The translations under genes were made by a program, and so were the position numbers. Source: Diphasiastrum complanatum (lineage: Eukaryota > Streptophyta > Lycopodiopsida > Lycopodiales > Lycopodiaceae). Taken from it: a stretch of DNA of 64,000 bases. The stretch is from contig CM055099.1 of NCBI GenBank assembly GCA_029204225.1, positions 68,193,084-68,257,083 on the forward strand, read 5' to 3'. How positions within the stretch are numbered: position 1 is the stretch's first letter; each line of letters opens with the position of its first letter. This document shows, piece by piece, positions 1,055-36,561 of this stretch. Under the pieces are notes generated by a model. That model did no database searches. It was not told where the DNA came from and saw only the letters and a program-made list of their open reading frames with translations.

Positions 1055-4000
1055 ATGGCATCTATAAATGCATATCTTTTGGATACTAATGAAAGGCTCA
1101 ACAAAACTAACTATTCCATATGGAAAGTTAGAATGGAATCTATCATGATCATGCAAGATCTGATGGAAATTGTAAATGGTAAGGAGGGTGAACCTATTCA
1201 TCCTCAAGAAAAAGCCAAATACATCAAGAGGTGCAATGTTGCACTACATTGCATAAAAATGAATGTTGCAAATGAACTCTTAAGAGAGGTAGGAGATTGC
1301 ACTTCATCTCAAGATGCTTGGGAGACTTTGCAAAAGGTCTATGAATCCAAGAACCAAACTAGAATGTTAGCTTTGAAGAATGAAATCTATAGAAGCTATC
1401 AAAAGAAAGGAGAGAGTGCACATACTTTTGTCCTAAGAGTAAAAGAATTGAACAAAGAGCTAGCCTTTATAGGTGAACCTATCAAGGATGAAGAGCTTGT
1501 TCAACTCATATTGAATGGACTAAGCTTTGAATTTGACAATTTGGTTCAGGGATATGCAATTATGGGTAAGCTACCCATACTTGAAGAACTCCAAGGCACG
1601 CTCATGGCCGAGGAATCAAGAAGGAGCCAAATGCAAGAGAGGATGGATAGGCTTTCCATCCAAGGTGGAGATGACCAAGCTCTCTTCACCAAAGGCAAAG
1701 GCAAGTCCAAAGGCAAAGGATCAACATTCAAGAAGTCTACAAAGCTTGAGGATCAAGAAGGACCCCCAAAGGCATCTCCATCAACCACCAAAGTCAAGAA
1801 GGACAAATCAAAGGTGAAGTGCTACTATTGTAGCAAGATGGGGCATTATGCCTCGGAATGCTTCAAGAGGAAGCAAGATCAAAGCCAAGCCAACATGAGC
1901 AAAGAGGAGGAGGAGGAGGAGGAGAGTTCACATGAGGACTCTCTCATGATGTCCATATTTTCTTCAACAAGCTTCAAAGGAGAAGATCCTTGGTGGATTG
2001 ACTCGGGTGCTAGTTCACACATGACTAGTAAAAGGGAGTTTTTCTCTTCTCTCTTATCTTATGATGGACCTATAAAGTCTATCTATACAGCAAATGATGA
2101 AGCTTGTAAGATTGAAGGAGTTGGTAGCATTCCCCTTTGCTTAGGATCTTCCAAAAAGATCAACATAGAAGGTGTTTTGTACATTCCTACAATAACAAAG
2201 AATCTACTAAGTGTTGGCCAAATGGTAGACAATGGTTTCAATGTTGACTTTGCTTCAAATGAATGTTTCATCAAGAAGAAGGGTAAGATAGTGGCTAAGG
2301 GCACTAGACTTGGCAAACTTTATAAGCTGGATGCATTTGTGGATACTATTGTTGTCATGTTGGCCGAGAAGAGCAAGATATCTACCTTTACTTTATGGCA
2401 CAAAAGACTTGGACATGTCAACTCGGGTTCCATGGAGGCTATGATCAAGGAGGAGTATGCTTTAGGCCTACCAAGGTCTATTGGGAAGGAAGACAAGGTT
2501 TGTGAAGCTTGTGCCTTATCCAAGGCACATAAGAAGGTGTTTCCTAACTCCATCACAAAGTCATCTCATCCTCTTGAACTCATACACTCGGATGTGCACA
2601 TTGCTAGCACCAAATCTAATGGAGGTTCATCCATGTTTTTAACCTTCATTGATGACTACTCAAGATATTGTTGGGTGTTCTTACTTTCCTTCAAGTCTCA
2701 AGTATTTGATACTTTTGTAAAGTTCAAGTTGTTTGTGGAAAAGCATCATAATCATAGCATCAAGATTCTTAGAAGTGACAATGGTGGAGAATTCATCTCC
2801 AATGAGTTCAAGGCCTTTTGTGAGGAGGAAGGGATCAAGAAAGAGACTTCTTGTCCTTACACTCCTCAACAAAATGGAGTTGCTGAAAGAAGGAATAGAA
2901 CATTATGTGAATGTTCTAAGGCTTTAAGATTAGATGCTTGTTTGCCCAAATCCTTTTGGGGTGAGTCTCTTGTATGTGCAAACTACTTGATGAATAGGGT
3001 GTCTTGCAAAGCAATTGAAGGCAAAACTCCATATGAGATGTTGTATGGAAAGAAACCCAATCTTAATCACTTGAAAGTTTTTGGGTGTATATGTTATGTG
3101 CATGTGCCATTGGAAACAAGAACCAAGGAGGATCCATCTTCCACAAGAGGGATCATGCTTGGATATGCAAGCTCAAGCAAGGGCTACAAATTCTATCTCC
3201 CATCCTTGAACAAATTTGTTGTTTCAAGGGATGTCATCTTTGATGAACATCATATGCATATGCTTGAAGAAGGCTCAAGTGCTCCAACAATCAAGAAGAA
3301 GATGGCCGAGGAGCAAGATCTTGGTTTTGAGGAGGAGCTCATGGAGGAGCAAGCACCAAACCCACCTATCACACCAAGGAGATCTTCAAGGGCAAAAGTG
3401 GAGCCATCAAGGCTCACATATCAAGGCAAAGGACAGCAAGTTGAGGGTATATCATCCACTTCTTATGCTTTATCTAGTTTTGAAGAACCGTCTAATGTTG
3501 AAGATGCATTGAACTCCAAAGAATGGTATAAAGCTATGTTGGATGAGTATGATGCCTTGATTGAGAATGAAACTTGGTTGCTTGTTGAGAGACCTCAAAG
3601 GAATGTAATAGGATGCAAGTGGGTCTTCAAGCTTAAGTTGAATGCAAATGGGAGTGTTAAGAAACATAAAGCAAGATTAGTTGCAAAAGGTTATGCTCAA
3701 GAGAGAGGGATAGACTATGAGGAAACTTTTGCACCCGTGGCCAAGATGGTCACAATAAGACTAATCATTGCACTTGCATCACATTTTGGATGGATTCTAT
3801 GTCAAATGGATGTCTCTAATGCTTTCTTGAATGGTTTTTTGGAAGAGGATATCTATATGGAGCAGCCACAAGGGTTCATCAAGCATGGAATGGAGAACAA
3901 AGTATGCCATCTCCAAAGAAGCATCTATGGCTTGAAGCAAGCCTCGAGATCTTGGAATTCAAGACTACATTGCTATCTTATTTCACTTTCTTTTGTTCAA

Positions 4001-5029
4001 AGTGAATATGATCCCACTCTTTACATTAAGTTTGATGATGTTGGTATTGTACTTTTACTCATTTATGTAGATGACATCATCATTAGTGGAAATAGTGTTG
4101 ATGGTATTGAAAAAATCAAGATAGATCTATCCTTAGAGTTCAAGATGGTAGATCTAGGGTGTCTTCACTTCATCTTAGGCATAGAAGTACTTAGAGGGTC
4201 TGATTTTATCTTTATAAGTCAAGTAAACTATGCTCAAAGTCTTTTGAAGAAGTTTAAGATGGAAGTATGCAAAAGTGTTGACACACCAATGGAGCAAGAT
4301 GTAAAAGTGCCAAATGAAGATGATGAAAGATCCTTCATGGACATCACTTTGTTTAGGCAACTTATAGGTTCCTTAATGTGGATCACTATAACTAGACCAG
4401 ATCTTAGCTTTAGTGTATGTAGGTTGAGCCAATCCATGCAAAAGCCATTGAATATCCATTGGAAAAAGGCTAAGAGGATTCTAAGATACATCTCGGGTAC
4501 ATTGGATTTTGGGATTCTATATAGAGGAGATGTGATTAACCTTCATGCATTTAGTGATTCAGATTTTGCAGGGGACAAGAGGGATAGGAAATCAACAAGT
4601 GCCTATTCAACTTTCATAGGAGAAGGTGTGGTTTCATGGCTTTCAAAAAAGCAAGAAACTATATCTCTATCTTCAACCGAGGCCGAGTACAAAGCTTTGA
4701 CAACCACTACAAAGGAGGTACTTTGGATCAAGAGATTATTGGTGGAACTAAAGATCATGGATTCAGAGGAGGCACCAATCATCTACAATGACAATATATC
4801 AGCCCAACACCTTGCATCTAACCCAATCTTCCATGCAAGATCTAAGCACATTGAGATATGCCATCACTTTGTGAGAGAAATGGTGCAAGCCAAGGAGATT
4901 GCTTTGGAGCATGTTCCAAGCAATGAATGTGTAGCTGATCTACTTACTAAACCACTTCAAAAGACACCTTTTATGAAGTTCAGATCATCACTTGGAGTGA
5001 TTAGTAAAGCAATGATTGAACCAAGCTAG
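1055..5029 (+). CDS. Copia Gag-Pol polyprotein, intact
   Basis: This is a 1324-residue polyprotein that would make the particle shell and the enzymes for reverse transcription and integration. The N-terminus is a UBN2-type Gag. A CCHC zinc knuckle (CYYCSKMGHYASEC) sits at residues 256-269. The protease motif DSGASSH starts at Asp316. The GAG-pre-integrase motif LWHKRLGH follows. The integrase triad reads D513, D575, E611, a D-61-D-35-E spacing. The RT motif YVDD is at 1004-1007. RNase H shows SDSDFAGD from 1167 and STEAEY ending at 1212. The C-terminus contains ADLLTKPL. The ATG follows a roughly 0.8 kb leader and aligns with the start of the second copy. No lesion is visible, unlike the 31.9-38.1 kb copy. 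Gag and Pol share one frame, as is usual for Copia. Transcription would start in the LTR. Confidence 0.96.
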   Translation: MASINAYLLDTNERLNKTNYSIWKVRMESIMIMQDLMEIVNGKEGEPIHPQEKAKYIKRCNVALHCIKMNVANELLREVGDCTSSQDAWETLQKVYESKNQTRMLALKNEIYRSYQKKGESAHTFVLRVKELNKELAFIGEPIKDEELVQLILNGLSFEFDNLVQGYAIMGKLPILEELQGTLMAEESRRSQMQERMDRLSIQGGDDQALFTKGKGKSKGKGSTFKKSTKLEDQEGPPKASPSTTKVKKDKSKVKCYYCSKMGHYASECFKRKQDQSQANMSKEEEEEEESSHEDSLMMSIFSSTSFKGEDPWWIDSGASSHMTSKREFFSSLLSYDGPIKSIYTANDEACKIEGVGSIPLCLGSSKKINIEGVLYIPTITKNLLSVGQMVDNGFNVDFASNECFIKKKGKIVAKGTRLGKLYKLDAFVDTIVVMLAEKSKISTFTLWHKRLGHVNSGSMEAMIKEEYALGLPRSIGKEDKVCEACALSKAHKKVFPNSITKSSHPLELIHSDVHIASTKSNGGSSMFLTFIDDYSRYCWVFLLSFKSQVFDTFVKFKLFVEKHHNHSIKILRSDNGGEFISNEFKAFCEEEGIKKETSCPYTPQQNGVAERRNRTLCECSKALRLDACLPKSFWGESLVCANYLMNRVSCKAIEGKTPYEMLYGKKPNLNHLKVFGCICYVHVPLETRTKEDPSSTRGIMLGYASSSKGYKFYLPSLNKFVVSRDVIFDEHHMHMLEEGSSAPTIKKKMAEEQDLGFEEELMEEQAPNPPITPRRSSRAKVEPSRLTYQGKGQQVEGISSTSYALSSFEEPSNVEDALNSKEWYKAMLDEYDALIENETWLLVERPQRNVIGCKWVFKLKLNANGSVKKHKARLVAKGYAQERGIDYEETFAPVAKMVTIRLIIALASHFGWILCQMDVSNAFLNGFLEEDIYMEQPQGFIKHGMENKVCHLQRSIYGLKQASRSWNSRLHCYLISLSFVQSEYDPTLYIKFDDVGIVLLLIYVDDIIISGNSVDGIEKIKIDLSLEFKMVDLGCLHFILGIEVLRGSDFIFISQVNYAQSLLKKFKMEVCKSVDTPMEQDVKVPNEDDERSFMDITLFRQLIGSLMWITITRPDLSFSVCRLSQSMQKPLNIHWKKAKRILRYISGTLDFGILYRGDVINLHAFSDSDFAGDKRDRKSTSAYSTFIGEGVVSWLSKKQETISLSSTEAEYKALTTTTKEVLWIKRLLVELKIMDSEEAPIIYNDNISAQHLASNPIFHARSKHIEICHHFVREMVQAKEIALEHVPSNECVADLLTKPLQKTPFMKFRSSLGVISKAMIEPS

Positions 5030-16093: not shown

Positions 16094-17764
16094 ATGAATC
16101 CTTCTACCTCTAGATACTCTTCTGATGGCGGCGATGCCTCCAAGTTCTCCTTCTTGGGTGAGCAGCTTACGACTTATAGTTCCTTTCAGCATAACCAGCA
16201 ACCTTCTGATTCCACTGGCCTTAGTTTCAGTGGTGCATCTCTATCTCATTCTCATGCACAGGCTGCTGGTCAAAACCTTATCCCGCAATCCCGTCAACAG
16301 CCCCAAGGACTCGTAGGTTCAAATGCTGCTAGTAAACCGATAAGCCTTCACCAGCTCGTGGATTTTGGTATGGGCAGTTCCGGTCCCATTTTGAGTGCCC
16401 AATTGGTGCACGGGTTGCAGGAATCAGCAAGGGCCCCCTCACCGGTGGCTGATGCTTCCTCACAAGCACTCATGACGACACTCTTGCTTCTCCAGCAGAA
16501 AATAGGGCACTTGCAGACACTTGTGCAGCTCATTGCGCAAGGGGATATGTCCAATGCTTCTGCAACCCAACAGCAGATGACAACAGCCGCAGGAATTGCA
16601 ACAGTTATTTCTCAGTTGGTAACAGCAGCTGCAGGGTGGCTGCCACAAGTACATCAACAATTTCAGCATCCTCTGTCCGATCAGAGGAGTCACTTTGGAT
16701 CAACATCCTCACCAGACATGGCTTTCTTTCAGTACAATGGACCTCCGAGTTCACTTGGGACTGCTTTCGGAATCTCTGCTGGCAACGGTAGATTCAATTC
16801 CTCTGTAGATCGAGGAAGAGAAAACAACTCAGGGGTTGAATCCGTTGTAGTCAAGACTAGATTAGATGGATCACCAGAGATTGGTAGGCAGTTGTTTGAA
16901 GCACATGGAGGCCATGCTTCAAGCTGCACCATTCGAAGCTCGCTTGAAACTACTGCTGGCAACTCTCTTGTAGGTTCTTTTGCTGTCAGTTTAGGTACAA
17001 GTGGGGATGGGACTATCAACCTTGAGGAAGAAAATATAGCTCTATGTGTTGGAAATCCTTTCGTGTCGAGCATTTCAATGGAGATTAATTCATCTTCAAA
17101 AGATCAGGATTCTGGAGGTGTCTATAAGGAAGATGAAGATGATGGAGAAGCTGAGAATTTACCTCCTGGTTCTTATGAGTTGATTGAATTAGAAGCCATT
17201 GAGATTCTAGCAGAGCATACTCACTTTTGTGAAATATGTGGAAAAGGTTTCAAGAGGGACGCAAACTTGAGAATGCACATGAGGGGCCATGGAGATGAGT
17301 ATAAGACGGTTGCAGCTCTCACAAAACCAGATAAGTCCTCCCAGGACCCATCATTAAGAAAGCCAAGAAGATATTCTTGCCCATATCTTGGTTGCAAAAG
17401 GAACAAAAACCATAGAAAATTTCTTCCTTTGAAGACGATGCTGTGTGTGAAAAATCACTACAGAAGAAGTCATTGCCCAAAGATGCTCACATGTACCAAG
17501 TGCAGGACCAAAAAGTTTTCTGTGGCTGCAGATCTAAAGACGCATGAAAAACATTGTGGACGTGACAAATGGCAATGTTCATGTGGTACCACCTTCTCTA
17601 GGAAAGACAAGCTTCTAGGACATGTAGGGCTCTTTGTAGGGCATGCGCCTGCAACGCCTCTTCATGAAATTGATATGGGTGGAAGTGGAATGGAAAGAAC
17701 GGAAACTCAGAGTGCCTCTGGAAATGGGACTACTAATATCTGCAGTCAAGGCTTTACAAAGTGA
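16094..17764 (+). CDS. STOP1: STOP1-like C2H2 zinc-finger transcription factor
   Basis: This 556-residue protein has the zinc-finger set of the STOP1 family, nuclear factors that activate genes for tolerance to protons and aluminium, such as malate and citrate exporters. Finger 1 is Cys379, Cys382, His395, His399 in [21 protein letters not shown]. Finger 2 starts at Cys429/Cys434 and is followed by KNHYRRSHC. Finger 3 uses Cys467/Cys470 with His484. Finger 4 is [16 protein letters not shown], with the family ending FVGH before a variable tail. The N-terminal half has a low-complexity Ser/Gln region and a conserved helical stretch ([20 protein letters not shown]). The coding frame is uninterrupted, as I recall for Arabidopsis STOP1 (about 500 residues). 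The ATG is the first in a clean context. STOP1 versus a STOP2-like paralogue cannot be settled here. Confidence 0.93.
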
Positions 17765-20540: not shown

Positions 20541-21285
20541 TCTTAAATAGGTTCTGTCCTCAGAACGGGAAAAAGAAAACATGAAATTATTCCTTCATTA
20601 CAGGAGTTCCAAGGCCCAAAAGGGCTGTTTAAGAAATGCCACGTAAGAGAGAAAAAATCGTCGGATTTTAAAACTCCGACCGAGTTTTTGGTTTGCCCAC
20701 ACAACTTCGATGACTTGACCTCACTAGTAACGTATGTAGTTAACTGGAAGTTGGGTAGCCGCAATGCGTGGGGTCCATACTTCAAGATTCTATTTTCTAC
20801 CATTAACTAACATAACTTCTCATGTAAATGCAAATCGTATTGCACATCAGAGTTTTCTTTTCATCTACTCAAAGCGTTCACATCAATGAAAAACAGTCTT
20901 ATCGATCTGAAAATCATGGTAAGAAACTTTGAATATTTTGGATCACAATGAGCGCCAACGTGAATCTAAATTTTTGCAATTTTGAAAATACGGAGTGTGT
21001 TGGATCAAATTGAGTGGTAAGGTTATTTCAAACTTTTGCAATTCAAAAATTTGCGATTTCAACACACATCTATTGAAAAAATATTTTGCTTATTTTGCTC
21101 ATAACTGCGAAGCATTGATTTTGCATATCAAGCAAGAAATATGGAGTGTGATGGATCAAAAAGAGCGCCAAGGTCATTTCAAACTTTTTCAATGAATTTT
21201 TTTTTTTTAATTAAGACGAGTTTTAATAGCTTACAAGATATATAACAAGTTGGTTTTCTACTAGATTAATCTATCGATTATTAAG
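20541..21285. other. Non-coding stretch with three copies of a GGATCA-rich unit
   Basis: Units starting near 20938, 21000 and 21149 share TGGATCA-(A/C)-A, GAG(C/T)G and a downstream CAAACTTTTGCAATTC-like block. No gene is seen. Confidence 0.5.
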
Positions 21286-23993
21286 ATGTCTAAATATCAT
21301 CTCCATATTGATCTTCCCACAGAATATGCTCCACTGTCGAGAAAAAATCTGAAAGGATCCACCTTTTCAGCTCACCAAAGGACGGAAGACAGGAAACATT
21401 GTGATCTATGGGTTGATGGAAGTTTGTATCCAATCGATCCAAGCTCAATGCAACATCCAAATTTTAGATCGGTCACACAACTCATACTGTTTTTGTGTGA
21501 AGGACACAATGGTCTATTGGGTTATTGTGAAAGATTGAAAAGTTATGGCATTAGAAATTCAATGAAAAAAATCCATTGTTTGGAAAATATGTTGAATGGT
21601 TTGCTTACTGACTACCGAGAAAGAGGAACTATTTTTTTGCAAACAAAAGAAGAGAATGAAATCTTGAAGATAGATAATTCTCGTTTGCAAGATATTATAT
21701 TAAACCTCAACCAACAATATGAAACTAATTGTACAAACATTGCGTACCTCATATTGTCAAATACATGTAGAAGTAAACACATTACGGAAGAAAATACTGA
21801 ACAATAAGCAAAAAAGAGTTATTTTAAAAAGTATTGATGAGCTTTCAACAAGTGGGGGCCAACGGAAAAAAAGAATATATGCTTTCAAGTAAGATTATGT
21901 TTTAAACTATTCATGTGTTTTGTTTCATCTAGCACTCAATGGTTGTGAATTGTTTTTTTTCTAAATCTTATTTTTCTTTTGTAGATTAGCTTTAGTCACC
22001 AATGAAAATCTGAAAGACAAGGACATGATTGGAAAGTCTTTGAGTGTAGTACTTACAGCCAAGTCAACAACGAGTCTACTTGGAAATCAACGATATTCTC
22101 AAATCAAGTCCAAGATTGCAGAGGCCCTTATGGGCGAAGTCGGCAAGATCATTGACCGAAAATTGATACAAGGGGCATGTGATTATTCTGGTATTAGCAG
22201 GGATGCATATGACACAATGTTTAAAATTATCAAAGAGGCATTTGGACAAGTACATATAAAAAAATTTCCTATTCCTCGGCCCTTTCAAATCAAATTAGAG
22301 AGGGATGTGTTAAACAAGGATTTGCAAAACATCATTGGTATTCCTTACCATATAAATGAAATTTATAACTCAAAACATGGCACTTTGTCATGTGATTATA
22401 CCAACAATATGTTTGTAGATCTGAATCATTTACTGAGATTTATTGTAAAGTTTTATGGAATCACAAATGAAAGTGTTGAAAAATTGATATTAGTTCTCAA
22501 GTTAGATGAATCAGAAGTAATAAAGGGACAAAAGCTGGAAAGGGTTAGTGTTACAATTATGAATGGAGCATTAAGCAATACGATAAACTCGGAGAGTCTT
22601 GATTTCAGTGTGCAGTCCGAAAATAATATTTGGTGGTTGGCAGCTTTCCAGGTTTAAATCTATTCTATTGAGTACTAGCAACTAATTCATTTCAAGAATT
22701 AATGGTTTTGTGTTTTAAGTTAATATTGTTCTGTTATTATAGGTCTGAGTTCAATTCTCCTAAATTAGTTCATGATTTTGCGTTTTAAAAGAAGATCAGG
22801 ACATTCTATTTTGGATTTTTAGTAAAACAGAATATCCAGAGATAATTAAGAATCATATGAGCGACACACCACTCAATGTTCTTGGAATAGGTGAATTTAA
22901 GGTGGAATGGCATTTGGCTGGAGACCTGAAGTCGTTGAAATGCTTGTTCCACGTCTCACATGGAGCAAATTCAAAAAATCCATGCCTCTATTGCATGAAA
23001 ATTACACATGACATGTCGAAGAGCACGAGAGTTTCAAGGGATATAGAAGATCCGACTTGGAAACCAGTATTACCGATTCTGCTTAAAAATGTTCACATTT
23101 GTACACTACATGGAGAGGTTAGAATATCGAAAAATTGATATAGCTTCATATTTGGTTTGCTTGGAATATTAAGCCAGAGTCATTAGCCAAAAAGGCAATA
23201 GCTCGATTGGAAGAAGTTTTATCAAAAGCGGGACTTCATAAAGGACACGCTAAAATACAAAAGGATGAGAAGCTTTAAGGAAAAACAGGAAACATCCCAT
23301 GCAAACCAAGTATAGGAGGATCCAAAGCTCGTCGTTTATTATCAAATCATTCTGGAAAACCAACTAAAGTCCAGTACTCAATTTGGATAGATGTACTCAA
23401 TGCCACAAAGGATTTTGAAGAAAAAGGAACAACGAGGATTAAAAAAGTTGAAGTCTGGACAAAGCTTGACAGCATGGTCAAATTGCTCAGAAAAAATAAA
23501 CTATCTGATACTGATGTCCTACTAATTGAGAAATCAACAATTTAGTTTGTGGATGCAGTTAAAGACGCCTGGGGTGAAGATCATATTATGCATTATATGG
23601 TAAATCTCTTTTCAATATAACTAACTCTTTGATTTATAATCTCATTGCACATATGCTAAATTTAAAATGATTAATATGACAATATTTGTATCTCTGATAT
23701 TGCAGCACATTTCACGACATCATGCATCATTTTTTGCAAAAGCTTATGGCAGTCTAAGTATTTGGTCATCACAAGGAATGGAAAAATCGCATTGGCAAGC
23801 CAGAGCAGCATTTCATCAAAATACACAACACGGTGGAACATCTCAAAAAAATAGTTACATCATCCAGCTATTTCAATGGTTCTACAAGCGTATTCAAATC
23901 CGATATAAAACTATATCAACAAATTATCAGAAATTCAGAAAGGCGTGCAAATTTGTAGACGAAAATAATATTGATGCAAGAGTCAACCCATAG
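21286..23993 (+). pseudogene. Gene A: decayed intron-bearing transposase-like protein
   Basis: Four exons are inferred: 21286-21888, 21985-22651, 22743-23599 and 23706-23993, with GT...AG introns of about 91-106 bp. Splicing 21888 to 21985 joins two long frames in register, which supports the model. Exon 1 includes a coiled-coil stretch near 21650-21730. Exon 2 contains KLDESEVIKGQKLERVSV. Exon 3 has EWHLAGDLKSLKCLF, NPCLYC and HICTLHGEVRI. Exon 4 has SIWSSQGMEKSHWQ and QHGG. This order (GD near a CxxC, then TLHG, then QG-E-K-H) is one I associate with large transposase-like proteins found across animals, fungi and early-diverging plants; the exact family is not certain. There are frameshifts (about 21760, 22790, 23130) and stops (TAA near 23276, TAG near 23543), so it is not functional. 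It converges with gene B, 73 bp apart. Confidence 0.6.
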
Positions 23994-24066
23994 TAAATTT
24001 CATGATATCAGACGAAAAATGTATATGTATTATATCGCATCATGTGTAGTACAATGCAAGGCAAAA

Positions 24067-25198
24067 TCATTGTTTCTCTTTGTCTTTAATGATCAGCTTT
24101 GCTGTGTGGTCATGAAGAAATTTTTTTTTATCATATGGATCTAGAAAATCAATCGATCTTCTTTTGCTCAAGTCAATGTATCCAGAGAAAATAGCTAAGG
24201 AGGAAGACCTTTTCAGAACTTCCTCAGCTACATAGCCAAACACTTTTATGGCAATGTCTCTCTTCACAAAAATAATTTTATATGTATTCGGAGGGTATTT
24301 ATGCCCATTCGAGAAATAGGATAACACTTTAATTTCCATTATTATTGTCGCAGCATCTGAAGAAAATTTGCTATGATGAATGCAAATCTCTTTATTTACA
24401 AAGCACTTCAAATAATTGGACAGGGATGAATCCCTTTGTTGTGATCCCTGACCTTCTCTCAAATATCCTTGCCTTGTTGCAAAGGCATCCACCTCAACAG
24501 TAGCTTGTAAATATGAGCAAAGGTCACATGTCTTGTAAAACAAAATGACTATATTTGAATAAAAATCTCATTAAGATAAAACCAAATTTACCTACCAGAT
24601 CACGCTCATCAGCTTCAATAAGTGCAGCAGTATGTAGATCATGACCAGCAACAATGGTCGTCGAAGCACTGGATGGACTAGTTTCCAAAGACTGTGACAC
24701 ATATATGCTCTGGATTTTCAGAAATTCCTCCTCATTGGGCAAATTTGCCTGGTATGCCCTGCTTTCAAACATGATTGACTACAGTGCTTCAGTCCCATCC
24801 ATCCATTCATCTCCGTCTTTGTAATCAATAGAAGCACGTAGATCATCATCACCGTCGAGATTTGTGAAGTCCTCGAATTCTTTGACCACACGTTTAAAAT
24901 CACTCACGATTTTTGTGAATCGTTGGTCGTGGCTTTGCTTTGAAGATGGTTGGGCAAGTACTAGGTCATGGAAATGGATGAATCGTAGATTATCCATGAT
25001 CAACATAGACTGATTCAGACTTTCATAATACTCCTTATACAACACTGGAAAATATGATTTATGTTCTGATCCAAACCTCTCAATATCAAAAGACATATTG
25101 AAATACGTCTTATAGTGACCTATGTAGTTACCAACACCGGATTCAACGAGGAAGGCGTGCAAAGCAGAATCAAAAGTATTAGAGGATGACGCGGCCAT
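24067..25198 (-). pseudogene. Gene B: unknown two-exon protein
   Basis: The minus-strand frame starts MAASSSNTFDSALHAFL and runs from 25198 to 24596, interrupted by one TAG at 24779-24781 that is one C-to-T step from Gln. It is then joined across a short intron (24595-24532, GT...AG) to an exon ending at 24067. The join keeps the frame. The product would be about 355 residues, with an acidic central part and a C-terminal part containing TCDLCSYLQATVEVDAF and KYPPNTYKIIFVKRD. I do not recognise the family. It converges with gene A and diverges from gene C across a CACGTG-rich spacer, so it may belong to the same mobile unit. Confidence 0.5.
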
Positions 25199-25221
25199 CT
25201 AGAAAGTATGACCAATATGGT

Positions 25222-25375
25222 TGAGTATCGCTACGACGCGGGGTGGCAGGGAGTTAAAAGACAATCAGGACTTCCTCGCGTGATGGCGATATTGGCGAAT
25301 GACCTGATATCGGAATGATGCGAGGGATCTTAGATCGTCTAGAATCTTTGAAAGATTCTCGCATGGTAGCGATAC
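25222..25375 (-). repeat. Paired TATCGCCA / TAGCGATA motifs upstream of gene B
   Basis: TATCGCTACGACGCG near 25227, CGCGTGATGGCGATATTGG near 25277 and CATGGTAGCGATAC near 25361 form alternating arms of one motif. The same motif flanks gene C in opposite orientation at 26010-26175. Confidence 0.6.
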
Positions 25376-25551
25376 TGCAAATAAAAAGAACTGTTCACAC
25401 ACTGTGAGATACAGGGAGTGAAAATCCAAAACTTAGCAAAATGTTTTAACTGATCAAACAAAATTTATTTAGCTAAAACCAAGAAAATCCAAGCCGTACA
25501 CTCGTCGATCCAACAACAGATCAGATCTATGGCGCGTAGTACAACCGTCCA

Positions 25552-25919
25552 CACGTGTGAGATCACACGTGCTACAATACACGTCAATCTGCCATTCGCC
25601 CATGTGCCCATACGTGCAAGATCACACGTGCCAGAACACATGTCACTAAACCATTGGACCACGTGGACACACGTGCAAGTTTCACACGTGCGGATATAGA
25701 GGTGTAGGTCCCACACGTCAGGTACTGATTGGGCCACGTGACCACATGTGTGAGCCTATACGTGCAAGAACACATGTCACTGATCCATTTGGCCACGTGT
25801 CTCCACGTGGTTTCCCACACGTGTTGATCCAGACGTGCAGTTTCACACGTGCGTATACAGACGTGTAGTTCCACATGTCAGCTATTGACTGGGCCACATG
25901 TCACTGGTATTCACACGTG
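25552..25919. promoter_or_regulatory. Dense CACGTG (G-box) array between divergent genes B and C
   Basis: CACGTG occurs at 25552, 25566, 25625, 25660, 25670, 25685, 25735, 25794, 25804, 25818, 25846 and 25914: twelve in 368 bp, plus many ACGTG and CACATGTC variants. Part of the density comes from a larger duplication: the segment around 25683-25740 recurs near 25844-25900 (period about 161 bp). CACGTG is the core bound by plant bZIP and bHLH factors. Placement between two divergent starts suggests a shared promoter or enhancer, or a minisatellite; function is inferred. Confidence 0.7.
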
Positions 25920-26009
25920 CCAATTTTTCTCCCCTATAAGTCCATTCTCGGGGATTGTACAGGTTTTCGCATAATTTGCTAGCACGTTTGATTGCATCCA
26001 TACGAAATG

Positions 26010-26175
26010 CATTCGTGATATCGCCATCACACGAGCGACCTCCTCTCCATGCCCATTCCTTACACCCTCTCGTGTTGTAGCGATATCAGCTTGACTTCCT
26101 CAATATCGCCATCACGTGAGCCCCTGCCTCTCCCCGCCTGACTCTACCACTCTCTCACGTCGTAGCGATATCACG
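26010..26175 (+). repeat. Two tandem hairpin-like units upstream of gene C
   Basis: Unit 1 (about 26016-26090) begins GATATCGCCATCACACGAG and ends CTCGTGTTGTAGCGATATC. Its two ends are 16/19 reverse-complementary. Unit 2 (about 26101-26174) repeats the pattern as ATATCGCCATCACGTGAG...CTCACGTCGTAGCGATAT. Confidence 0.65.
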
Positions 26176-26240
26176 GTTAGAGTTCTCAGTGTCTCTTCTG
26201 TTGTGTCTCTATCCTCGCGTAGTATAGATATTCAGCCTCA

Positions 26241-28069
26241 ATGGCTTGGATGAAACAAACCGCTAGGCTTACCAGTTTCTTTCATCCGTCCCGTCCCCAG
26301 ACATCTAAACCCGTACGTTCGCAAAGATGCGGTAGACCTAGTTGTCCATGGTTGAGGGACATCAGGGCCTTGCAGAGGAGCAGCAAACTTCTGATCCCGA
26401 AAGCAGCCTTCTATTGGGCTATGAGAGAGGTTACACAAGACATGACCACCCATCTGCCCTATGCAGTGAGGTGGAATATCACTGCATTGGAGGCCCTCCA
26501 TACTGCATACGAGGATTTCTAGACAAAATTGTTTGAGGATTTGATGATGTGCTCCATTCATGGCAAGAGGGTGACACTGATGCCCAAGGACATGCTTCTT
26601 GTCATGAGGCTTTGAAACACCTATGACAGCATTTTTAAGTCAGGATTCACACAGAGGCAAGTTCCTCTTGAAAAAGGGCCTGTCCCACCCCGCAAAAAGA
26701 GAAAGCAAGCACAGCCCAAGCGTTCGCAACCCAAGCCCAGGTCTCCCAGCTCTTCACCCTCACCTCCTCCCATTAGAAAAGATCTGGCTAGTACATCCGC
26801 AATTCCACTAGTTGAGAGTCCTCCCGTAACCCCTGATCTTCAATAACACGATTCTCCTTCTATACATGAGGATGACCTAAATACAGTGGTAGACATGATT
26901 GTTTCTGATGTTGATGCAACTGATAAAGAGTTGCATATCAGACTTCCGAATGAACCTAAAGACACATTTTTTTATTCTGAGAGGTACATTGATTTTGACC
27001 TGTATATAGCCAAGAAAATAGATGATCTCGGAGGGGAGTTTATGTTCTGTATAGACGATATTAATTTTGCAATGCATATCAAAGACCCGCATTGTAGGGA
27101 GCTAAAAGAAAAGACCTCATATATCTCAGACACAGTAGTTGAATCTGCTTGTGCATACTATCTACATAAATATACATATACAGTCACGAAGGAGATTTTT
27201 GTTGTATCTCCATTTTTTGGGCATCTGTTGAATAAAGAGAGGAAAGCCAGAAGGCTCTTCAGGCACACCAGCAAAGAGGCATCAATGTTCATTATCCCAT
27301 ACTGTTCAAAGTAAGATAGTTTCTTCTTGTAATATCTGTTTTCTGTAAGATTTTTCTTTTGGAAACTCTTATAGATTCTAGTAATTCATTGCTTGTCTCT
27401 TTCTGGCAGCAAACATTGGAGTGTGCACATCATATCCATGAAAGTGGATTCGACTGGAAGCTGCACACTTGTGTGCATGACAATGAATTCTTTGCATGCC
27501 ACCCATTCCATGATTAAATCCATGTACAAAAGGATGGTGGGGCTATTGCCCAGGCCGGATGGGTTGGTTGTAAATACCAACATAGAGGTTGTTGATGCAA
27601 AGGTAAAAGGAATCTTTTTACGTATTTTATTTGCATGATGGCATGTAGTTTAGAAATATATTGAATTATACTTTAACAACTTTTCGTTGTGATTTTTTTT
27701 TATGCTTTTAGCTGCGGATGGTAAATCGTTCTTGGATTGGTATATGGTGCAACCTCCAGATGCTAGTATCCGTGAGGTATTTTTTTCAATGTTCCAGTAT
27801 TCTGATGATATATTGTTAACTTTGTGAATTTATATATTTTAAAACATTGGCTAATACATACATACACTCGATATTTTTTTTTGCAGTTCCAATATCCTGA
27901 GGTATCAACAAATGCGATTCATCAGTATCGGCATGAAATGCTGGAAATTTTACTATCATGTGCAAGGCTCTACAAGCATGAAGGTGCCTCGGATGAACCT
28001 GCCAGAGGATCCGTGGATGAGGTTACAGTGCTCGAGGATATGCCTCAGGCACCTTTGATTGAAATGTAA
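26241..28069 (+). pseudogene. Gene C: histone H3/CENH3-like domain in frame with a Ulp1/C48-like protease
   Basis: Exon 1 (26241-27310) is one frame broken by TAG, TGA and TAA at codons 94, 125 and 202. Codons 1-124 follow histone H3 end to end: MAWMKQTAR (1-9), WLRDIRALQ (37-45), LLIPKAAF (50-57), MREVTQD (61-67), RWNITALEAL (77-86), AYEDF (89-93), LFED (97-100), CSIHGKRVTLMPKD (104-117). LLIP, the RW and a longer loop 1 resemble CENH3 more than canonical H3. A basic, Pro/Ser-rich linker with PPRKKRKQ follows. The frame then enters a Ulp1-like region that ends exon 1 and continues in exon 2 (27410-27602) as KHWSVHII, giving the catalytic His, then CMTMNSLH. Exons 3 (27712-27776) and 4 (27887-28069) finish the C-terminus. 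The Gln...Cys-Gly part of the protease is deleted or scrambled at the start of exon 3. The H3 fold would bind H4 in a nucleosome and Ulp1 enzymes cleave SUMO; the joint role is unknown. Confidence 0.72.
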
Positions 28070-28344
28070 ATATAGTTCTGACAGACACATAGAAATATAT
28101 CATCACATGATGATCCATAGATTAATAGATAGGCAAATAGAAAGTGGGCTATTACTGAATGCCACAAATATATTATAACGATTTCAAAAGCAATGTACAT
28201 TTTTCAAAATACTAAATACAAATTGCTTGATGAAATCTTGAAGTCATTTGAGACTTCTTTGTATTCTTTTTTTTTTTTTGAAAAACTACATTGATGTTGC
28301 TCGTCTATCATCCCAATGTTTATGTGGTTTCAACAATTTCTATG

Positions 28345-29717
28345 CTTCTATTTAAGTCCTTGCACTCTATGCGACTTTCTTGTCTTGGCCTTACCTGTAC
28401 ATCAAAGAAACTTGTTAAACAATATCAACATTGAGATTATGTCAAATGAAATATTGCAATACCGAAAACACTAAAACATGTTCAAATAAAATTATTGAAA
28501 GTCATTTCAAATGTGTACTGGAATAAATACACATACACCTACCAATCTCTCGTTGACTCAAAAACAGAAGTGTTTAGGAATATCATATTGCAGCAATGTA
28601 AGCTCTGATCGAATGTGATCGAGTGTCCAATCTTCTTCCACCTCAATTGTTGTAAGAGTAGAATTATTTTTCCTCACTTGAATTTCTATTTGATCTTGAT
28701 GATTCACTGTAAAATCCTGATCCAATGCTTCCATCCGTTGCCAACTTTGGACCATCTTCTATAATAAAATGTTAAAGAAAGCACTTGTTTTTCTATAAGA
28801 TATCTAAATTTCATTGACGATCTATTAACTATGCACTCGATATTGCCATTCCTCTTTTTATCCCAATGATCATCAAGGAGGCTTGATAACATATTGTCTG
28901 TTAAATCACTACAAATAAACATTGTCACTGTTTTACGAATATTACATTCAACAAAAATTGCAATAGGCAAAAACCAGTGCAATCTATTATTTTTTGAACC
29001 TGTGCTATATTTCATACAGTTTTGAATGTCCATAAGAAACCTTGATCGGAAGCTCTCTGCTATGGGGGAATATGGAGGAATCCATTCTTCGCTTGAGAAA
29101 GAGGGTAATGATATCGTCTCTAATTTTCCTCCTAAACTGGATGGTGTGTAAAATGAATCATAGAAGAAAATACAAGAATCCAAAAGTGATCTCGTGGAGT
29201 GGTTCTTGTATTGCAGAAGATCAATATCAGAATGAATAATGTCCATGATGTCGACAAGGGATTGTATAGGTTGCCATTCGATTATGTTTGATGGATACAA
29301 ATCTGCACAAATCCATAAAACTATATGTCATTCAAATACTCAGATACACGTCTAAATGATTAATGCAAAGCTCAAAGCAAAAAATTCTCCAAAACTTACA
29401 ATTGTATTTGAGTCTGTCATTTGAACTTATGCCTTCCACTCTAATTTCCTTATGCATGTAGACATGTTAAATCAAGACCTCTGAAATGGATCGACCACCG
29501 GGTGAAACTTTGAAGTCTAAAATTCTACCTTTCCAAAAATTCCTATAACCATATTTGATTTTCTCTTTTTACCAAAAACACCTCTTGAGGAGGGATGCAT
29601 GAGAACCCAATGAAATTTTCTATAGATACGTGGTATCCAAGAGCCATCAGAGTCTTTTTCATTACAAACAGAAACTGATACAATATTGCTTCGTGGTCTA
29701 CGGCTTTCGGAAGCCAT
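28345..29717 (-). pseudogene. Gene D: multi-exon protein ending in a ubiquitin-like stretch
   Basis: On the minus strand the start MASESRRPRSN lies at 29717. Exon 1 (29717-29529, exactly 63 codons), exon 2 (29448-29400) and exon 3 (from 29302) join in frame through GT...AG introns. Exon 3 includes PSNIIEWQPIQSLVDIMD. A frameshift near 28760 leads to IEIQVRKNN, TTIEVEEDWTLDHIRSEL and IPKHFCF followed by a TGA. This beta-strand/helix pattern (short strand, T-x-x-V strand, charged helix, hydrophobic strand) is like a ubiquitin fold, but there is no certain family match. A last basic exon may begin near 28392. It converges with gene C, which suggests one composite unit A-B-C-D. The product is not functional as it stands. 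Confidence 0.5.
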
Positions 29718-29829
29718 TGCAAAGCTAAAAGAAGATGAACAACAGAGTCTGAAACAAAATATAGTTAAATCAGTATGAAAATAAATTATCAAATTTGTAA
29801 TAAATGTTGGTGGTCTTTCGTAAATCATA

Positions 29830-31901
29830 TATGTTAGTCTAACTATGGTTAGATCAAAATAGATTTACTTTAACCACAAGTTTAGGTCCCAAGCACTTCG
29901 AAAACTCACGAGCAGCAATTACGGTCCAATCACAAGTCAGGACCCTACCCGACGGGAGTTTTGAATTGTATAGAAATATGACCGGAAAGTTCCAAAAAAG
30001 AAATCGACCGGCAACAACGTTACGGTCTTTCACAGGTGTAAATATATAACTGGGCCAATGTACGTCGAATAGTTGAAAAGTCAAAAACAGCATCTTGACA
30101 AAAGACCCTTTTGGTGCTCAAAACTCCTATAATGAATCTTGCAAATCTTATCTATGAATCATTATTTTTAGTCCGATCTTTCCATTTGAATAAGTACTCA
30201 AAGATGCAACAATATTTCAATTGCTTGCTCCTACTCTTGAATACTAACTCAAATTCCAAAAGATACACTGAACTATAAATCCTCCAAATGGGTTGATCTA
30301 CTCCAAAACAAAGTTCATCACCTTCATGTAATCCTAATTACATGAACCACTAGGTGAATTAACCTCTTTATTTCAGAGATCAAATCCAAAATTTAAAGAA
30401 ATTCCATTTCAATTTATTGTAGAAAATAATGCTTCTTGGTACAAATATTTTTTGAATATTCAAATATTCTAAAATACCACAATTCAGTCATCTAAGGAGA
30501 TCCATCAAGTCTCAGACAATCATAACTCAAACCAGAGTATTGCAGTTACTCTAATGAGTTAACAGCCCCATTTCTAGCATCATATGCAAGAAATCAGCAT
30601 CTATCCGTATCTTAATAGATTTATATGTCTCCTACAAAACTGGAGATTTAGACTGAACTTTGTACACAAGCACTTATAGACTACATTGTCAATCTGTAAA
30701 GAAAGCAATTCCTCATAAGTGAACAATTACTTAATGGAAAGGCCTGTGAGATTCATACAATCTCAAGTATGCATTGGAGTAAAGGAATTTAGAGTTCAAA
30801 TAACAGATCTAAATCCTTGACTCACCCATTTGATCAAGAATTACTCATTATCTTAAGAATCTTCACATTTTCTTATAATCTTCAAATGACCTTTAAGTAT
30901 CAATTTATGATCCGTCAATCATAAACATTTAGAATCTTATGATTCATCAATCATAATTCTCATGATTCTAATACCATACTTAATCACTAAAAGATATTGG
31001 AGTATATGTACAACATACAACTCAGGAAATATAAGAATCATTCTGAAATCTTTCCCACAAGGAAAAATACTGGATCTCAAGAATATTCTTCCAATCCGAT
31101 TCTCTACCAGATTATGAGTTCCAAATTCAACAATCAGCCAAGTAAATAAAGACTATTATAACATTCATCTCTAACAATATAAACTTTATACAATCTCCTA
31201 GAACAACGTCTAGAGATTACAAAGTTCTGCTGAATTCCCAAAATTCAGTTTAACATTCTTGGAACCATTAGGATCCGGTATCCAATTGAGCTTACTGGGA
31301 TACTATCACTAATGAATAACGTCTATTTCTCAACTGAGAAATACTTATCTAAGAAATAAGTATCCTATGCACACAATTTAATGAATCTGAATGACTCATA
31401 AATTATGTGTCTTATAATCAATACACACAAAACCAACAGTTTCGGTGAATGCTCTTTACACTGTCCGTTTTACCAATTAACTTCCACATGAGTAAATCAA
31501 CTACTCAAGTAAATTGCTCATGATTTAGAAATCTTAAATGTCTAGATGAAAAATTCAATTATACTAGTATAACACCACATTTAGATCCATATCCAAATCA
31601 CTTTTAAGCTAACCAATAGATCTATGAGAACAGATCTGTTAACTCTGCCAGTAATTGTCAAACACAATACTTGATTATATGTCTATGTTAATCACCTACT
31701 CTTAGCATGAATTCATATTACTTAAACAGTCTTTCAGAACCTAGTTCTACACTGGAAGGCATTATACGAATCTCAATCCAATTGTCTTGTATTTAAGAAA
31801 TTTCTAAAAAGTAGAGGTTTTAAAATAAAAGAGAAATAGTTCTTACGGGTTTCTGATTTGGAATTTATGAGATACCATTGAGGGATCCGGATCTATATCT
31901 C
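29830..31901. other. AT-rich stretch without genes, left flank of inverted Copia copy
   Basis: No motif-bearing frame, RNA or strong repeat is seen. Before the Copia insertion it was continuous with 38060 onward, where a worn Gypsy RT is read on the minus strand. It may therefore be the decayed 3' part of that Gypsy element, but no domain supports this. Confidence 0.45.
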
Positions 31902-31906
31902 ATAAC
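31902..31906. repeat. Target-site duplication ATAAC (left) of inverted Copia copy
   Basis: ATAAC directly precedes the LTR and is repeated exactly at 38055-38059, as expected for a 5-bp Copia target-site duplication. Confidence 0.92.
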
Positions 31907-32588
31907 TGTAAAAATTACAGCAAATAAGGATCCTAAAACACTTGAAATGATGAGGGAAACAATAGATTATGATTTCATAAGATTAGCACAAGTTGAACCA
32001 TCAAAATCCATCAAAAATCTATGCTTGAACCTCACTAAATGGCCCAAATCCTTGAAGAAGGCTTCACACGTGTGAAAGTACGGCCTCCCACAGTCTGAGT
32101 ACTGTACACCAGACCTACATTCAATCCTATAATCATTAGTAATCACAAGTACTCAAACAATTATGAACATAGAGAGCAATTGCACCATTATGAGAGAAAA
32201 ATCATGAAATTGCTTGATTGATTTTGGTGAGATATCATCACCTATATATACATGATCCATCACGGTTTTGGGCAGGTATGAGTAGCCCTAAACCTATCCC
32301 TAATGCTAATTTTGGTGGATCTTTCATCCCTACCAAGTTAGGGTTGGAATCTTGGAGATCCCTCAACAATGCAAAAATTACCAAAAATAGCTCCTATTTT
32401 TTCTCCCTTGTATCTAAGCATAATTTGGACTCATTCCAAAGGTTCTAACACTTAGGTCTACTTGAGAACATCCTTATGAATGGAATCCTATGCTATTTGG
32501 CACGTGTGACAAGCCACATCATGACCATCTAACTATTTACAAGTCATATGACCAAAACTAGTCAAGCTAGAATTGTGAATTTTTAACA
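31907..32588 (-). repeat. 3' LTR of Copia family 1 copy 2
   Basis: It is 682 bp with TG...CA ends, and carries TTCACACGTGTGAA at 32063-32076. Confidence 0.96.
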
Positions 32589-32602: not shown

Positions 32603-35600
32603 CTAGCTTGGTTCAATCATTGCTTTACTAATCACTCCAAGTGATGATCTGAACTTCATAAAAGGTGTCTTTTGAAGTGGTTTAGTAAGTAGATCAGCTA
32701 CACATTCATTGCTTGGAACATGCTCCAAAGCAATCTCCTTGGCTTGCACCATTTAGTGATGGCATATCTCAATGTGCTTAGATCTTGCATGGAAGATTGG
32801 GTTAGATGCAAGGTGTTGGGCTGATATATTGTCATTGTAGATGATTGGTGCCTCCTCTGAATCCATGATCTTTAGTTCCACCAATAATCTCTTGATCCAA
32901 AGTACCTCCTTTGTAGTGGTTGTCAAAGCTTTGTACTCGGCCTCGGTTGAAGATAGAGATATAGTTTCTTGCTTTTTTGAAAGCCATGAAACCACACCTT
33001 CTCCTATGAAAATTGAATAGGCACTTGTTGATTTCCTATCCCTCTTGTCCCCTGCAAAATTTGAATCACTAAATGCATGAAGGTTAATCACATCTCCTCT
33101 ATATAGAATCCCAAAATCCAATGTATCCGAGATGTATCTTAGAATCCTCTTAGCCTTTTTCCAATGGATATTCAATGGCTTTTGCATGGATTGGCTCAAC
33201 CTACATACACTAAAGCTAAGATCTGGTCTAGTTATAGTGATCCACATTAAGGAACCTATAAGTTGCCTAAACAAAGTGATGTCCATGAAGGATCTTTCAT
33301 CATCTTCATTTGGCACTTTTACATCTTGCTCCATTGGTGTGTCAACACTTTTGCATAGTTCCATCTTAAATTCTTCAAAAGACTTTGAGCATAGTTTACT
33401 TGACTTATAAAGATAAAATCAGACCCTCTAAGTACTTCTATGCCTAAGATGAAGTGAAGACACCCTAGATCTACCATCTTGAACTCTAAGGATAGATCTA
33501 TCTTGACTTTTTCAATACCATCAACACTATTTCCACTAATGATGATGTCATCTACATAAATGAGTAAAAGTACAATACCAACATCATCAAACTTAATGTA
33601 AAGAGTGGGATCATATTCACTTTGAACAAAAGAAAGTGAAATAAGATAGCAATGTAGTCTTGAATTCCAAGATCTCGAGGCTTGCTTCAAGCCATAGATG
33701 CTTCTTTGGAGATGGCATACTTTGTTCTCCATTCCATGCTTGATGAACCCTTGTGGCTGCTCCATATAGATATCCTCTTCCAAAAAACCATTCAAGAAAG
33801 CATTAGAGACATCCATTTGACATAGAATCCATCCAAAATGTGATGCAAGTGCAATGATTAGTCTTATTGTGACCATCTTGGCCACGGGTGCAAAAGTTTC
33901 CTCATAGTCTATCCCTCTCTCTTGAGCATAACCTTTTGCAACTAATCTTGTTTTATGTTTGTTAACACTCCCATTTGCATTCAACTTAAGCTTGAAGACC
34001 CACTTGCATCCTATTACATTCCTTTGAGGTCTCTCAACAAGCAACCAAGTTTCATTCTCAATCAAGGCATCATACTCATCCAACATAGCTTTATACCATT
34101 CTTTGGAGTTCAATGCATCTTCAACATTAGACGGTTCTTCAAAACTAGATAAAGCATAAGAAGTGGATGAGATACCCTCAACTTGCTGTCCTTTGCCTTG
34201 ATATGTGAGCCTTGATGGCTCCACTTTTGCCCTTGAAGATCTCCTTGGTGTGATAGGTGGGTTTGGTGCTTGCTCCTCCATGAGCTCCTCCTCAAAACCA
34301 AGATCTTGCTCCTCGGCCATCTTCTTCTTGATTGTTGGAGCACTTGAGCCTTCTTCAAGCATATGCATATGATGTTCATCAAAGATGACATCCCTTGAAA
34401 CAACAAATTTGTTCAAGGATGGGAGATAGACTTTGTAGCCCTTGCTTGAGCTTGCATATCCAAGCATGATCCCTCTTGTGGAAGATGGATCCTCCTTGGC
34501 TCTTGTTTCCAATGGCACATGCACATAACATATACACCCAAAAACTTTCAAGTGATTAAGATTGGGTTTCTTTCCATACAACATCTCATAAGGAATTTTG
34601 CCTTCAATTGCTTTGCAAGACACCCTATTCATCAAGTAGTTTGCACATACAAGAGACTCACCCCAAAAGGATTTGGGCAAACAAGCATCTAATCTTAAAG
34701 CCTTAGAACATTCACATAATGTTCTATTCCTTCTTTCAGCAACTCCATTTTGTTGAGGAGTGTAAGGACAAGAAGTCTCTTTCTTGATCCCTTCCTCCTC
34801 ACAAAAGGCCTTGAACTCATTGGAGATGAATTCTCCACCATTGTCACTTCTAAGAATCTTGATGCTATGATTATGATGCTTTTCCACAAACAACTTGAAC
34901 TTTACAAAAGTATAAAATACTTGAGACTTGAAAGAAAGTAAGAACACCCAACAATATCTTGAGTAGTCATCAATGAAGGTTAAAAACATGGATGAACCTC
35001 CATTAGATTTGGTGCTAGCAATGTGCACATCCGAGTGTATGAGTTCAAGAGGATGAGATGACTTTGTGATGGAGTTAGGAAACACCTTCTTATGTGCCTT
35101 GGATAAGGCACAAGCTTCACAAACCTTGTCTTCCTTCCCAATAGACCTTGGTAGGCCTAAAGCATACTCCTCCTTGATCATAGCCTCCATGGAACCCGAG
35201 TTGACATGTCCAAGTCTTTTGTGCCATAAAGTAAAGGTAGATATCTTGCTCTTCTCGGCCAACATGACAACATTAGTATCCACAAATGCATCTAGCTTAT
35301 AAAGTTTGCCAAGTCTAGTGCCCTTAGCCACTATCTTACCCTTCTTCTTGATAAAACATTCATTTGAAGCAAAGTCAACATTGAAACCATTGTCTACCAT
35401 TTGGCCAACACTTAGTAGATTCTTTGTTATTGTAGGAATGTAGAAAACACCTTCTATGTTGATCTTTTTGGAAGATCCTAAGCAAAGGGGAATGCTACCA
35501 GCTCCTTCAATCTTACAAGCTTCATCATTTGCTATATAGATAGACTTTATAGGTCCATCATAAGATAAGAGAGAAGAGAAAAACTCCCTTTTACTAGTCA

Positions 35601-36561
35601 TGTGTGAACTAGCACCCGAGTCAATCCACCAAGGATCTTCTCCTTTGAAGCTTGTTGAAGAAAATATGGACATCATGAGAGAGTCCTCATGTGAACTCTC
35701 CTCCTCCTCCTCTTTGCTCATGTTGGCTTGGCTTTGATCTTGCTTCCTCTTGAAGCATTCCGAGGCATAATGCCCCATCTTGCTACAATAGTAGCACTTC
35801 ACCTTTGATTTGTCCTTCTTGACTTTGGTGGTTGATGGAGATGCCTTTGGGGGTCCTTCTTGATCCTCAAGCTTTGTAGACTTCTTGAATGTTGATCCTT
35901 TGCCTTTGGACTTGCCTTTGCCTTTGGTGAAGAGAGCTTGGTCATCTCCACCTTGGATGGAAAGCCTATCCATCCTCTCTTGCATTTGGCTCCTTCTTGA
36001 TTCCTCGGCCATGAGTGTGCCTTGGAGTTCTTCAAGTATGGGTAGCTTACCCATAATTGCATATCCCTGAACCAAATTGTCAAATTCAAAGCTTAGTCCA
36101 TTCAATATGAGTTGAACAAGCTCTTCATCCTTGATAGGGTCACCTATAAAGGCTAGCTCTTTGTTCAATTCCTTTACTCTTAGGACAAAAGTATGTGCAC
36201 TCTCTCCTTTCTTTTGATAGCTTCTATAGATTTGATTCTTCAAAGCTAACATTCTAGTTTGGTTCTTGGATTCATAGACCTTTTGCAAAGTCTCCCAAGC
36301 ATCTTGAGCTGAAGTGCAATCTCCTACCTCTCTTAAGAGTTCATTTGCAACATTCATTTTTATGCAATGTAGTGCAACATTGCACCTCTTGATGTATTTG
36401 GCTTTTTCTTGAGGATGAATAGGTTCACCCTCCTTACCATTTACAATTTCCATCAGATCTTGCATGATCATGATAGATTCCATTCTAACTTTCCATATGG
36501 AATAGTTAGTTTTGTTGAGCCTTTCATTAGTATCCAAAAGATATGCATTTATAGATGCCAT
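32603..36561 (-). pseudogene. Copia Gag-Pol, disabled copy
   Basis: This is co-linear with the intact 1055-5029 frame, from the start at 36561 to the same natural stop at 32603-32605. A 1-base deletion after 33370 shifts the frame between RT and RNase H. A 9-base deletion near 32753 removes three codons' worth of sequence and creates TAA at 32753-32755. About twenty residues differ from copy 1, including Asp to Asn at the second Asp of the RNase H SDSDF motif. The zinc knuckle, protease DSG, integrase motifs and YVDD look intact. Loss of RNase H translation would make the copy dependent on a helper. Confidence 0.95.

Follow-up and report, generated by a model that had tools for sequence, protein, structure and literature searches.

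This locus raises the question of why a reading frame in a lycopod genome should begin as a histone H3 and end as something resembling a Ulp1-type protease, and of what such a protein might do for the DNA that carries it. The window, a 64,000-nucleotide stretch of Diphasiastrum complanatum DNA (C8:68193084-68257083), was analysed together with the 1.74-Gb assembly of 5176 contigs from which it comes. The features of the gene are given below in window coordinates, with the exon structure derived from an alignment of 16 copies.

26241..27310, plus strand: exon 1 of the H3-Ulp1-like gene; the donor is kept in most aligned copies, and L013 lacks its GT
26241..26612, plus strand: histone H3-like domain, codons 1-124, from PDB phmmer, tblastn and trees, and from Pfam on the intact copy L015; TAG at codon 94
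26613..26846, plus strand: basic Pro/Ser linker; stops at codons 125 (TGA) and 202 (TAA)
27410..27602, plus strand: exon 2, carrying the HWSV and MNSLH motifs
27712..27776, plus strand: remnant of exon 3; the acceptor and part of the QQDDAFSCGW motif are gone in the window copy, as seen by alignment with 15 other copies
27887..28069, plus strand: exon 4, with the C-terminus and the stop, from the window frames, the 16-copy alignment and L015

The first-pass annotation had aligned codons 1-124 with histone H3, and this was borne out by matches far beyond chance. The best PDB match of the frame starting at 26241 was H3.3 (phmmer, 3.9e-19), with fission-yeast Cnp1 (CENP-A) matched at 1.2e-18, and a plant H3 query matched the window frame at 9.7e-21 with 45% identity over 93 amino acids (tblastn). 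Pfam PF00125 was found in the intact copy L015 at 2.6e-23, so that an H3-type histone fold is present. The predicted model of the H3 part, of low confidence (mean pLDDT 52), has four helices in H3 order.

Two trivial origins were considered and ruled out. An assembly or chance artefact is excluded by at least 150 H3-like places of the fusion family in the genome, 91 of the 150 listed being without a stop. A host H3 gene is excluded by the position of the gene inside a repeated element and by the presence of 13 full-length H3 genes, 97-99% identical to plant H3, elsewhere in the genome. Exon 1 gave no match in a plasmid collection. For the full fusion, the protein database yielded two relatives, the divergent H3-like proteins P0001 (407 aa) and P0002 (333 aa), which have long extensions and in neither of which a Ulp1 motif was seen; EALH and IHGKRVTLMPKD are common to P0001 and the fusion family.

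The single frame running from H3 through a Pro/Ser-rich basic linker into the protease-like part was confirmed in the window. The splice sites suggested earlier at 27310/27410 and 27602 fit the 16-copy alignment, and in L015 they give a whole H3-linker-Ulp1-like protein of 517 amino acids with no stop, in which the extension beyond the H3 part is 393 residues long. With L015 intact, the H3 and Ulp1 parts are not always separate genes in this genome. Exon 3 of the window is damaged, lacking 15 and 17 bases relative to the other copies, including the acceptor and the Gln/Cys motif. Copy L010 likewise has no stop, but part of its H3 fold is deleted and HW is changed to HQ. In two divergent copies, L046 and L047, H3 is present from about codon 60 on and is joined to the linker and the Ulp-N segment; both contain stops, and the identity of their protease-like part is 73-76%. 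A third divergent copy, L045, has Ulp-N without the H3 part.

The three stops in the window frame had been described as each one C-to-T step from a sense codon. A comparison of 27 rows from 26 places, the window included, upheld this for codon 94 (CAG in 19, TAG in 4) and codon 125 (CGA in 19, TGA in 3), but not for codon 202, which is TAA in the window and its duplicate and CTG in 12 rows, TTG in 4 and CTA in 2. Since TAA lies three changes from CTG, the commonest codon, and two from TTG or CTA, it did not arise by a single C-to-T step.

The protease-like part carries FxxPx5HW, MNSLH (where Ulp1 has DS) and QQx5CG in the order and spacing of Ulp1/SENP (C48) SUMO proteases, as judged against yeast Ulp1 and SENP2. 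In L015 the active-site His, Gln and Cys follow one another in order and spacing in one frame. When motif strings in any frame were counted, HW, QQ and CG were all present in 7 of 24 loci (L009, L012, L015, L016, L017, L022 and L026), and in L021 and L027 the Cys is kept with the Gly of CG changed. The family differs from Ulp1/SENP at the catalytic Asp: the motif was recovered in 18 of 24 searched loci, each time with Asn instead, so activity may be low or absent. It differs also in going unrecognised by searches: Pfam gave no Ulp1 match for the fusion protein at E<=1, the PDB gave no Ulp1-type match for this part, and a profile search of the protein database with it returned no relative. An hhalign comparison with two Ulp1/SENP sequences scored 23.6 (P 0.012, probability 3.6%) over a stretch ending near HW, before the Cys motif; this score was reached by 2 of 910 column shuffles, and by 0 of 40 in an earlier set. 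Judged by its motifs, the part is Ulp1-like, and it is not assigned as a member of family C48.

The N-terminal tail was compared across 34 places, one of them represented twice, giving 35 rows. It usually begins MARTKQTARL, whereas the window copy has MAWMKQTAR. K4 is kept in 33 of the 35 tails, and position 9 is never lysine, being L in 34 and F in one. There is one lysine in 25 tails, two in 8 and none in 2, making this a natural H3 tail with mostly a single lysine. R2 and T3 are often changed, many of the changes looking CpG-type by eye only. From its residues, the usual tail could carry methylation at K4, but not the K9 mark.

Likeness to CENH3 had also been proposed, and here the outcome was mixed. 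The insertion that makes loop 1 four residues longer than in H3 and the RW pair were both found in the window frame, and with LLIP they are CENH3-like. On the other side, the start of the tail and MPKD resemble H3, the fold shares 49% of its residues with H3 and 47-48% with plant CENH3, and trees built with reference sequences and without the host CENH3 place the family on its own long branch, joining neither H3 nor CENH3, with low to moderate support elsewhere. Assignment to CENH3 is thus weakly supported. The family shares with H3 and CENH3 variants a complete histone fold, the tail ARTKQTAR and FEDSMLC...KRVTLMPKD; it departs from them in its identity of about 49% to H3, the absence of K9, the few tail lysines, the long extension seen in L015 and its occurrence at so many places.

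The gene lies within a repeated DNA element that extends from 20596 to 30134 of the window, as determined by homology with 20 fetched loci. Its other features are as follows.

20596..20624, plus strand: left terminal inverted repeat, CATTACAGGAGTTCCAAGGCCCAAAAGGG; homology starts at 20595/20596 in four loci, and the left end is found in eight other loci
21286..23990, plus strand: gene 1, a transposase of the RAG1/Transib fold, with some four coding stretches of approximate limits; decayed in the window
24070..25432, minus strand: gene 2, no Pfam match; several stretches with approximate limits, open frames common to copies
25500..25935, no strand: non-coding CACGTG-rich array of divergent direct repeats, holding 12 of the 25 CACGTG of the window
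28510..29864, minus strand: gene 4, no Pfam match; several stretches with approximate limits, open frames common to copies
30106..30134, plus strand: right terminal inverted repeat, imperfect, ending ...CTCCTATAATG; homology with L022 stops here, and with L012 10 bases further

The inverted repeats (CATTANAGGAGTT...AACTCCTNTAATG) are imperfect, and the ends start with CATTA. The right end is also present in L017 and in the duplicate L028. Three complete copies measured 9539, 9979 and 10087 bp, and no target-site duplication, such as the 5-bp one expected of RAG1/Transib, was seen at any of the three. The order within the element is gene 1 (plus), gene 2 (minus), the CACGTG-rich array, the H3-Ulp1-like gene (plus) and gene 4 (minus). 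In the 1.5 kb preceding the H3 start codon, 15 of 16 copies have between 2 and 16 CACGTG, and L018 has none. In L027 (7058-10000, gene-strand orientation), about 1 kb of the gene-4 region occurs in three more tandem repeats, the last of which reaches the fetched end.

Relatives of gene 1 have the RAG1/Transib catalytic-core fold, one of them matching RAG1 over about 370 residues by fold comparison. The transposase family has two conserved Asp-containing motifs (KLDE and GDLK) with C-x2-C after the second, and a later stretch holds a candidate Glu motif, SSQGMEKSH, which may correspond to the Glu motif of RAG1; a PDB sequence search with that stretch found nothing. As PDB sequence searches with the transposase relative, the transposase profile and the later stretch gave no transposase, the link to RAG1 rests on fold. 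The RAG1 match, the two Asp motifs and C-x2-C are shared with Transib/RAG-like transposons, whereas the CATTA ends, the 5-bp target duplication not seen at the complete copies and the three additional genes set the element apart. Transib-like proteins have been reported in plants (39; PMC9435367), and known Transibs are described as encoding one protein (PMC4411706). The H3-Ulp1-like gene is carried as cargo by a repeated element of 9.5-10 kb, which has inverted repeats and also a gene related to RAG1/Transib-fold proteins. This supports the earlier idea of a mobile element in which an H3 of its own and a Ulp1-type part share one frame.

The nature of the carrier bears on two other explanations. 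The fusion could be derived from an integrated large DNA virus encoding H3. Viral histones are known, and P0001, the database H3 nearest to the family, continues far beyond the histone part at its C-terminus. Short peptide patterns, however, picked up no relative in two scans of viral contigs, and the transposon-type ends and transposase-fold gene of the element speak against this reading; we regard a viral origin as most improbable. Alternatively, the fusion could be a cofactor of transposition, with its H3 tail baiting or tethering a chromatin reader or the transposase complex and its Ulp1-like part stabilising that complex through SUMO. H3K4me3 read by the PHD finger of RAG2 stimulates RAG1, and here a RAG1 fold is found in the transposase relatives, while ARTKQTAR, read at H3K4, is retained in a tail with few other lysines. 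However, no PHD finger or RAG2-like gene was found in the Pfam-scanned pieces of the element, and nothing points to contact between transposase and fusion; we consider such a tether possible, if unlikely.

The size and spread of the family were estimated from an H3 search in which 150 of 6513 first-look candidates were scored, and from an Ulp-N list likewise of 150. Outside two blocks on C3, at least 63 of the 112 listed H3 matches have an Ulp-N match 300-900 bp downstream; 104 of these 112 are spread over 21 of the contigs C1-C23, with several per contig on most, and 8 are on small contigs. The two C3 blocks (18.5-21.8 Mb and 29.9-30.1 Mb) hold 38 of the 150 listed H3 matches, none with an Ulp-N partner among the matches listed. 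The C3-block copies (L023, L024, L048-L059) are H3-only derivatives, with an open frame of about 152 amino acids in most of the 14 seen. The H3 and Ulp-N halves can therefore separate, as seen in these copies and in L045, which has Ulp-N only.

This distribution also speaks to the suggestion that the protein is directed to centromeres. As a mimic of CENH3, the H3 part might lead the transposase, or else the DNA, into chromatin rich in CENH3 or H3, where insertion would be safe or favoured. The longer loop 1, RW, LLIP, DSMLC and RVTLM do resemble plant CENH3, and the H3-only derivative is packed in the two C3 blocks. These packed copies, however, lack the Ulp1-like part, the window copy lies at 68.2 Mb on a 70.7-Mb contig, and the trees do not group the family with CENH3. 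The 104 matches scattered elsewhere likewise argue against targeting to centromeres, as a partial test based on contig positions. We consider this explanation distinctly unlikely, and the centromeric role put forward in the first-pass annotation was not upheld.

Two further observations concern repeated sequence. Positions 22241-32240 of the window recur inverted at C8:68720898-68730897, about 0.5 Mb away, with 99.93% identity over 10 kb, which is either a recent duplication or an assembly effect. In the search that found the 13 full-length H3 genes, about 125-130 matches are other dispersed H3-fold sequences, 44-57% identical to H3 and many with long open frames; two of these, L063 and L064, share 94% identity. 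In both, the N-terminal part is Pro-rich, the protein terminates after the histone fold and no Ulp1-like part was seen.

Whether the protein has been of use to the element was addressed through dN/dS, which dropped as the comparisons became deeper. Pairwise values for the H3 fold were 0.34 among main-group copies and 0.22 between these and the older group, and over the H3 part common to L046 and L047 they were 0.45, 0.22 and 0.14 with increasing depth. Between the old and the main majority there were zero non-synonymous changes in the H3 fold at a dS of 0.134, and Ulp-N gave 0.06. Against the main majority, L046 gave 0.09 for H3 (58 shared codons), 0.25 for Ulp-N and 0.48 for the linker, and L047 gave 0.11 (58 shared codons), 0.21 and 0.37, respectively. 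Unique, recent changes were near-neutral, the implied dN/dS being about 0.84, 0.96 and 0.75 for the H3 fold, linker and Ulp-N, respectively; with all changes pooled the values were 0.53, 0.68 and 0.51. Context-dependent mutation was handled by class-matched shuffles only. In the H3-only frame of the C3 blocks, unique changes were like neutral ones (957 of 5000 shuffles gave a value as low as that observed, or lower), whereas all changes taken together differed from neutral (6 of 5000 shuffles), and pairwise dN/dS of the fold was 0.26.

The deep comparisons show that the H3 fold and Ulp-N have been under purifying selection, which for L046 and L047 is weaker in the linker, and the drop in dN/dS with depth implies a need for the protein in active copies. 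Deep constraint together with near-neutral recent change is the pattern expected if active copies need the protein and dead copies decay. A host H3 fragment and a Ulp1-like gene might instead have been copied along passively, with no use to the element. Gene capture by plant transposons is treated in a recent review, and recent copies do decay near-neutrally, as dead copies would, which weighs against a need for the protein. Passive capture is already disfavoured by the deep dN/dS, however, and the junction of H3 and Ulp-N is kept in divergent copies; we think it very unlikely. That the gene is conserved transposon cargo is well supported.

The most likely role, in our assessment, is that of an anti-silencing factor, the transposition tether being the main rival. 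In this view the element would have acquired a gene in which an H3-type histone is joined to a Ulp1-like domain. The encoded protein would enter the nucleus, where its histone fold would pair with host H4 or with H3 chaperones, and would counter silencing on copies of its own family. Its tail would be able to bear the H3K4 mark and would escape silencing marks at K9, its Ulp1-like domain would remove, or merely bind, SUMO on chromatin proteins, and the CACGTG-rich repeats upstream would be a landing or control site, like the tandem repeats for VANC proteins. Whether the fusion acts in this way we judge to be evenly balanced. A more specific version, in which the fusion is built into nucleosomes on its own copies at the CACGTG repeats and the K4-able, K9-less tail and the action on SUMO turn the chromatin from silent to open, seems unlikely.

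Anti-silencing was rated first because of the parallel with VANC and KIU genes and because the Ulp1-like gene stands beside a CACGTG-rich array in nearly all copies compared. VANC proteins of the Arabidopsis VANDAL elements are reported to bind non-coding tandem repeats and to induce loss of silent marks (PMC10398659), and KIU genes are described as VANC-type genes with a captured Ulp1 domain (PMC13317346). The present element resembles KIU (Kaonashi) and VANC of the Arabidopsis Vandal/MULE transposons in being a plant transposon with a Ulp1-like cargo domain and non-coding repeats, here just upstream of the gene. It differs from them in having H3 as the N-terminal partner, relatives with a RAG1/Transib-fold transposase and inverted repeats; its anti-silencing activity is putative, and the domain is Ulp1-like by motif only. 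Repeat arrays near genes are common, which weighs against the array as a control site.

Transposon proteins that fight silencing are already known, whereas no transposon-encoded histone was found in the open-licence PMC literature searched, and one may have been described elsewhere. Should the product act in chromatin, a mobile element would be altering the histone itself and not the enzymes that set marks. Given the large family and at least one uninterrupted copy, the idea is testable.

The window also contains an uninterrupted STOP2-like C2H2 zinc-finger gene on the plus strand (16130-17761, Pfam), which is probably a host gene. Two Copia-type polyproteins, at 1055-5029 (plus) and 32753-36561 (minus), lie in opposite orientation and are near-identical by eye, the first being in one open frame.
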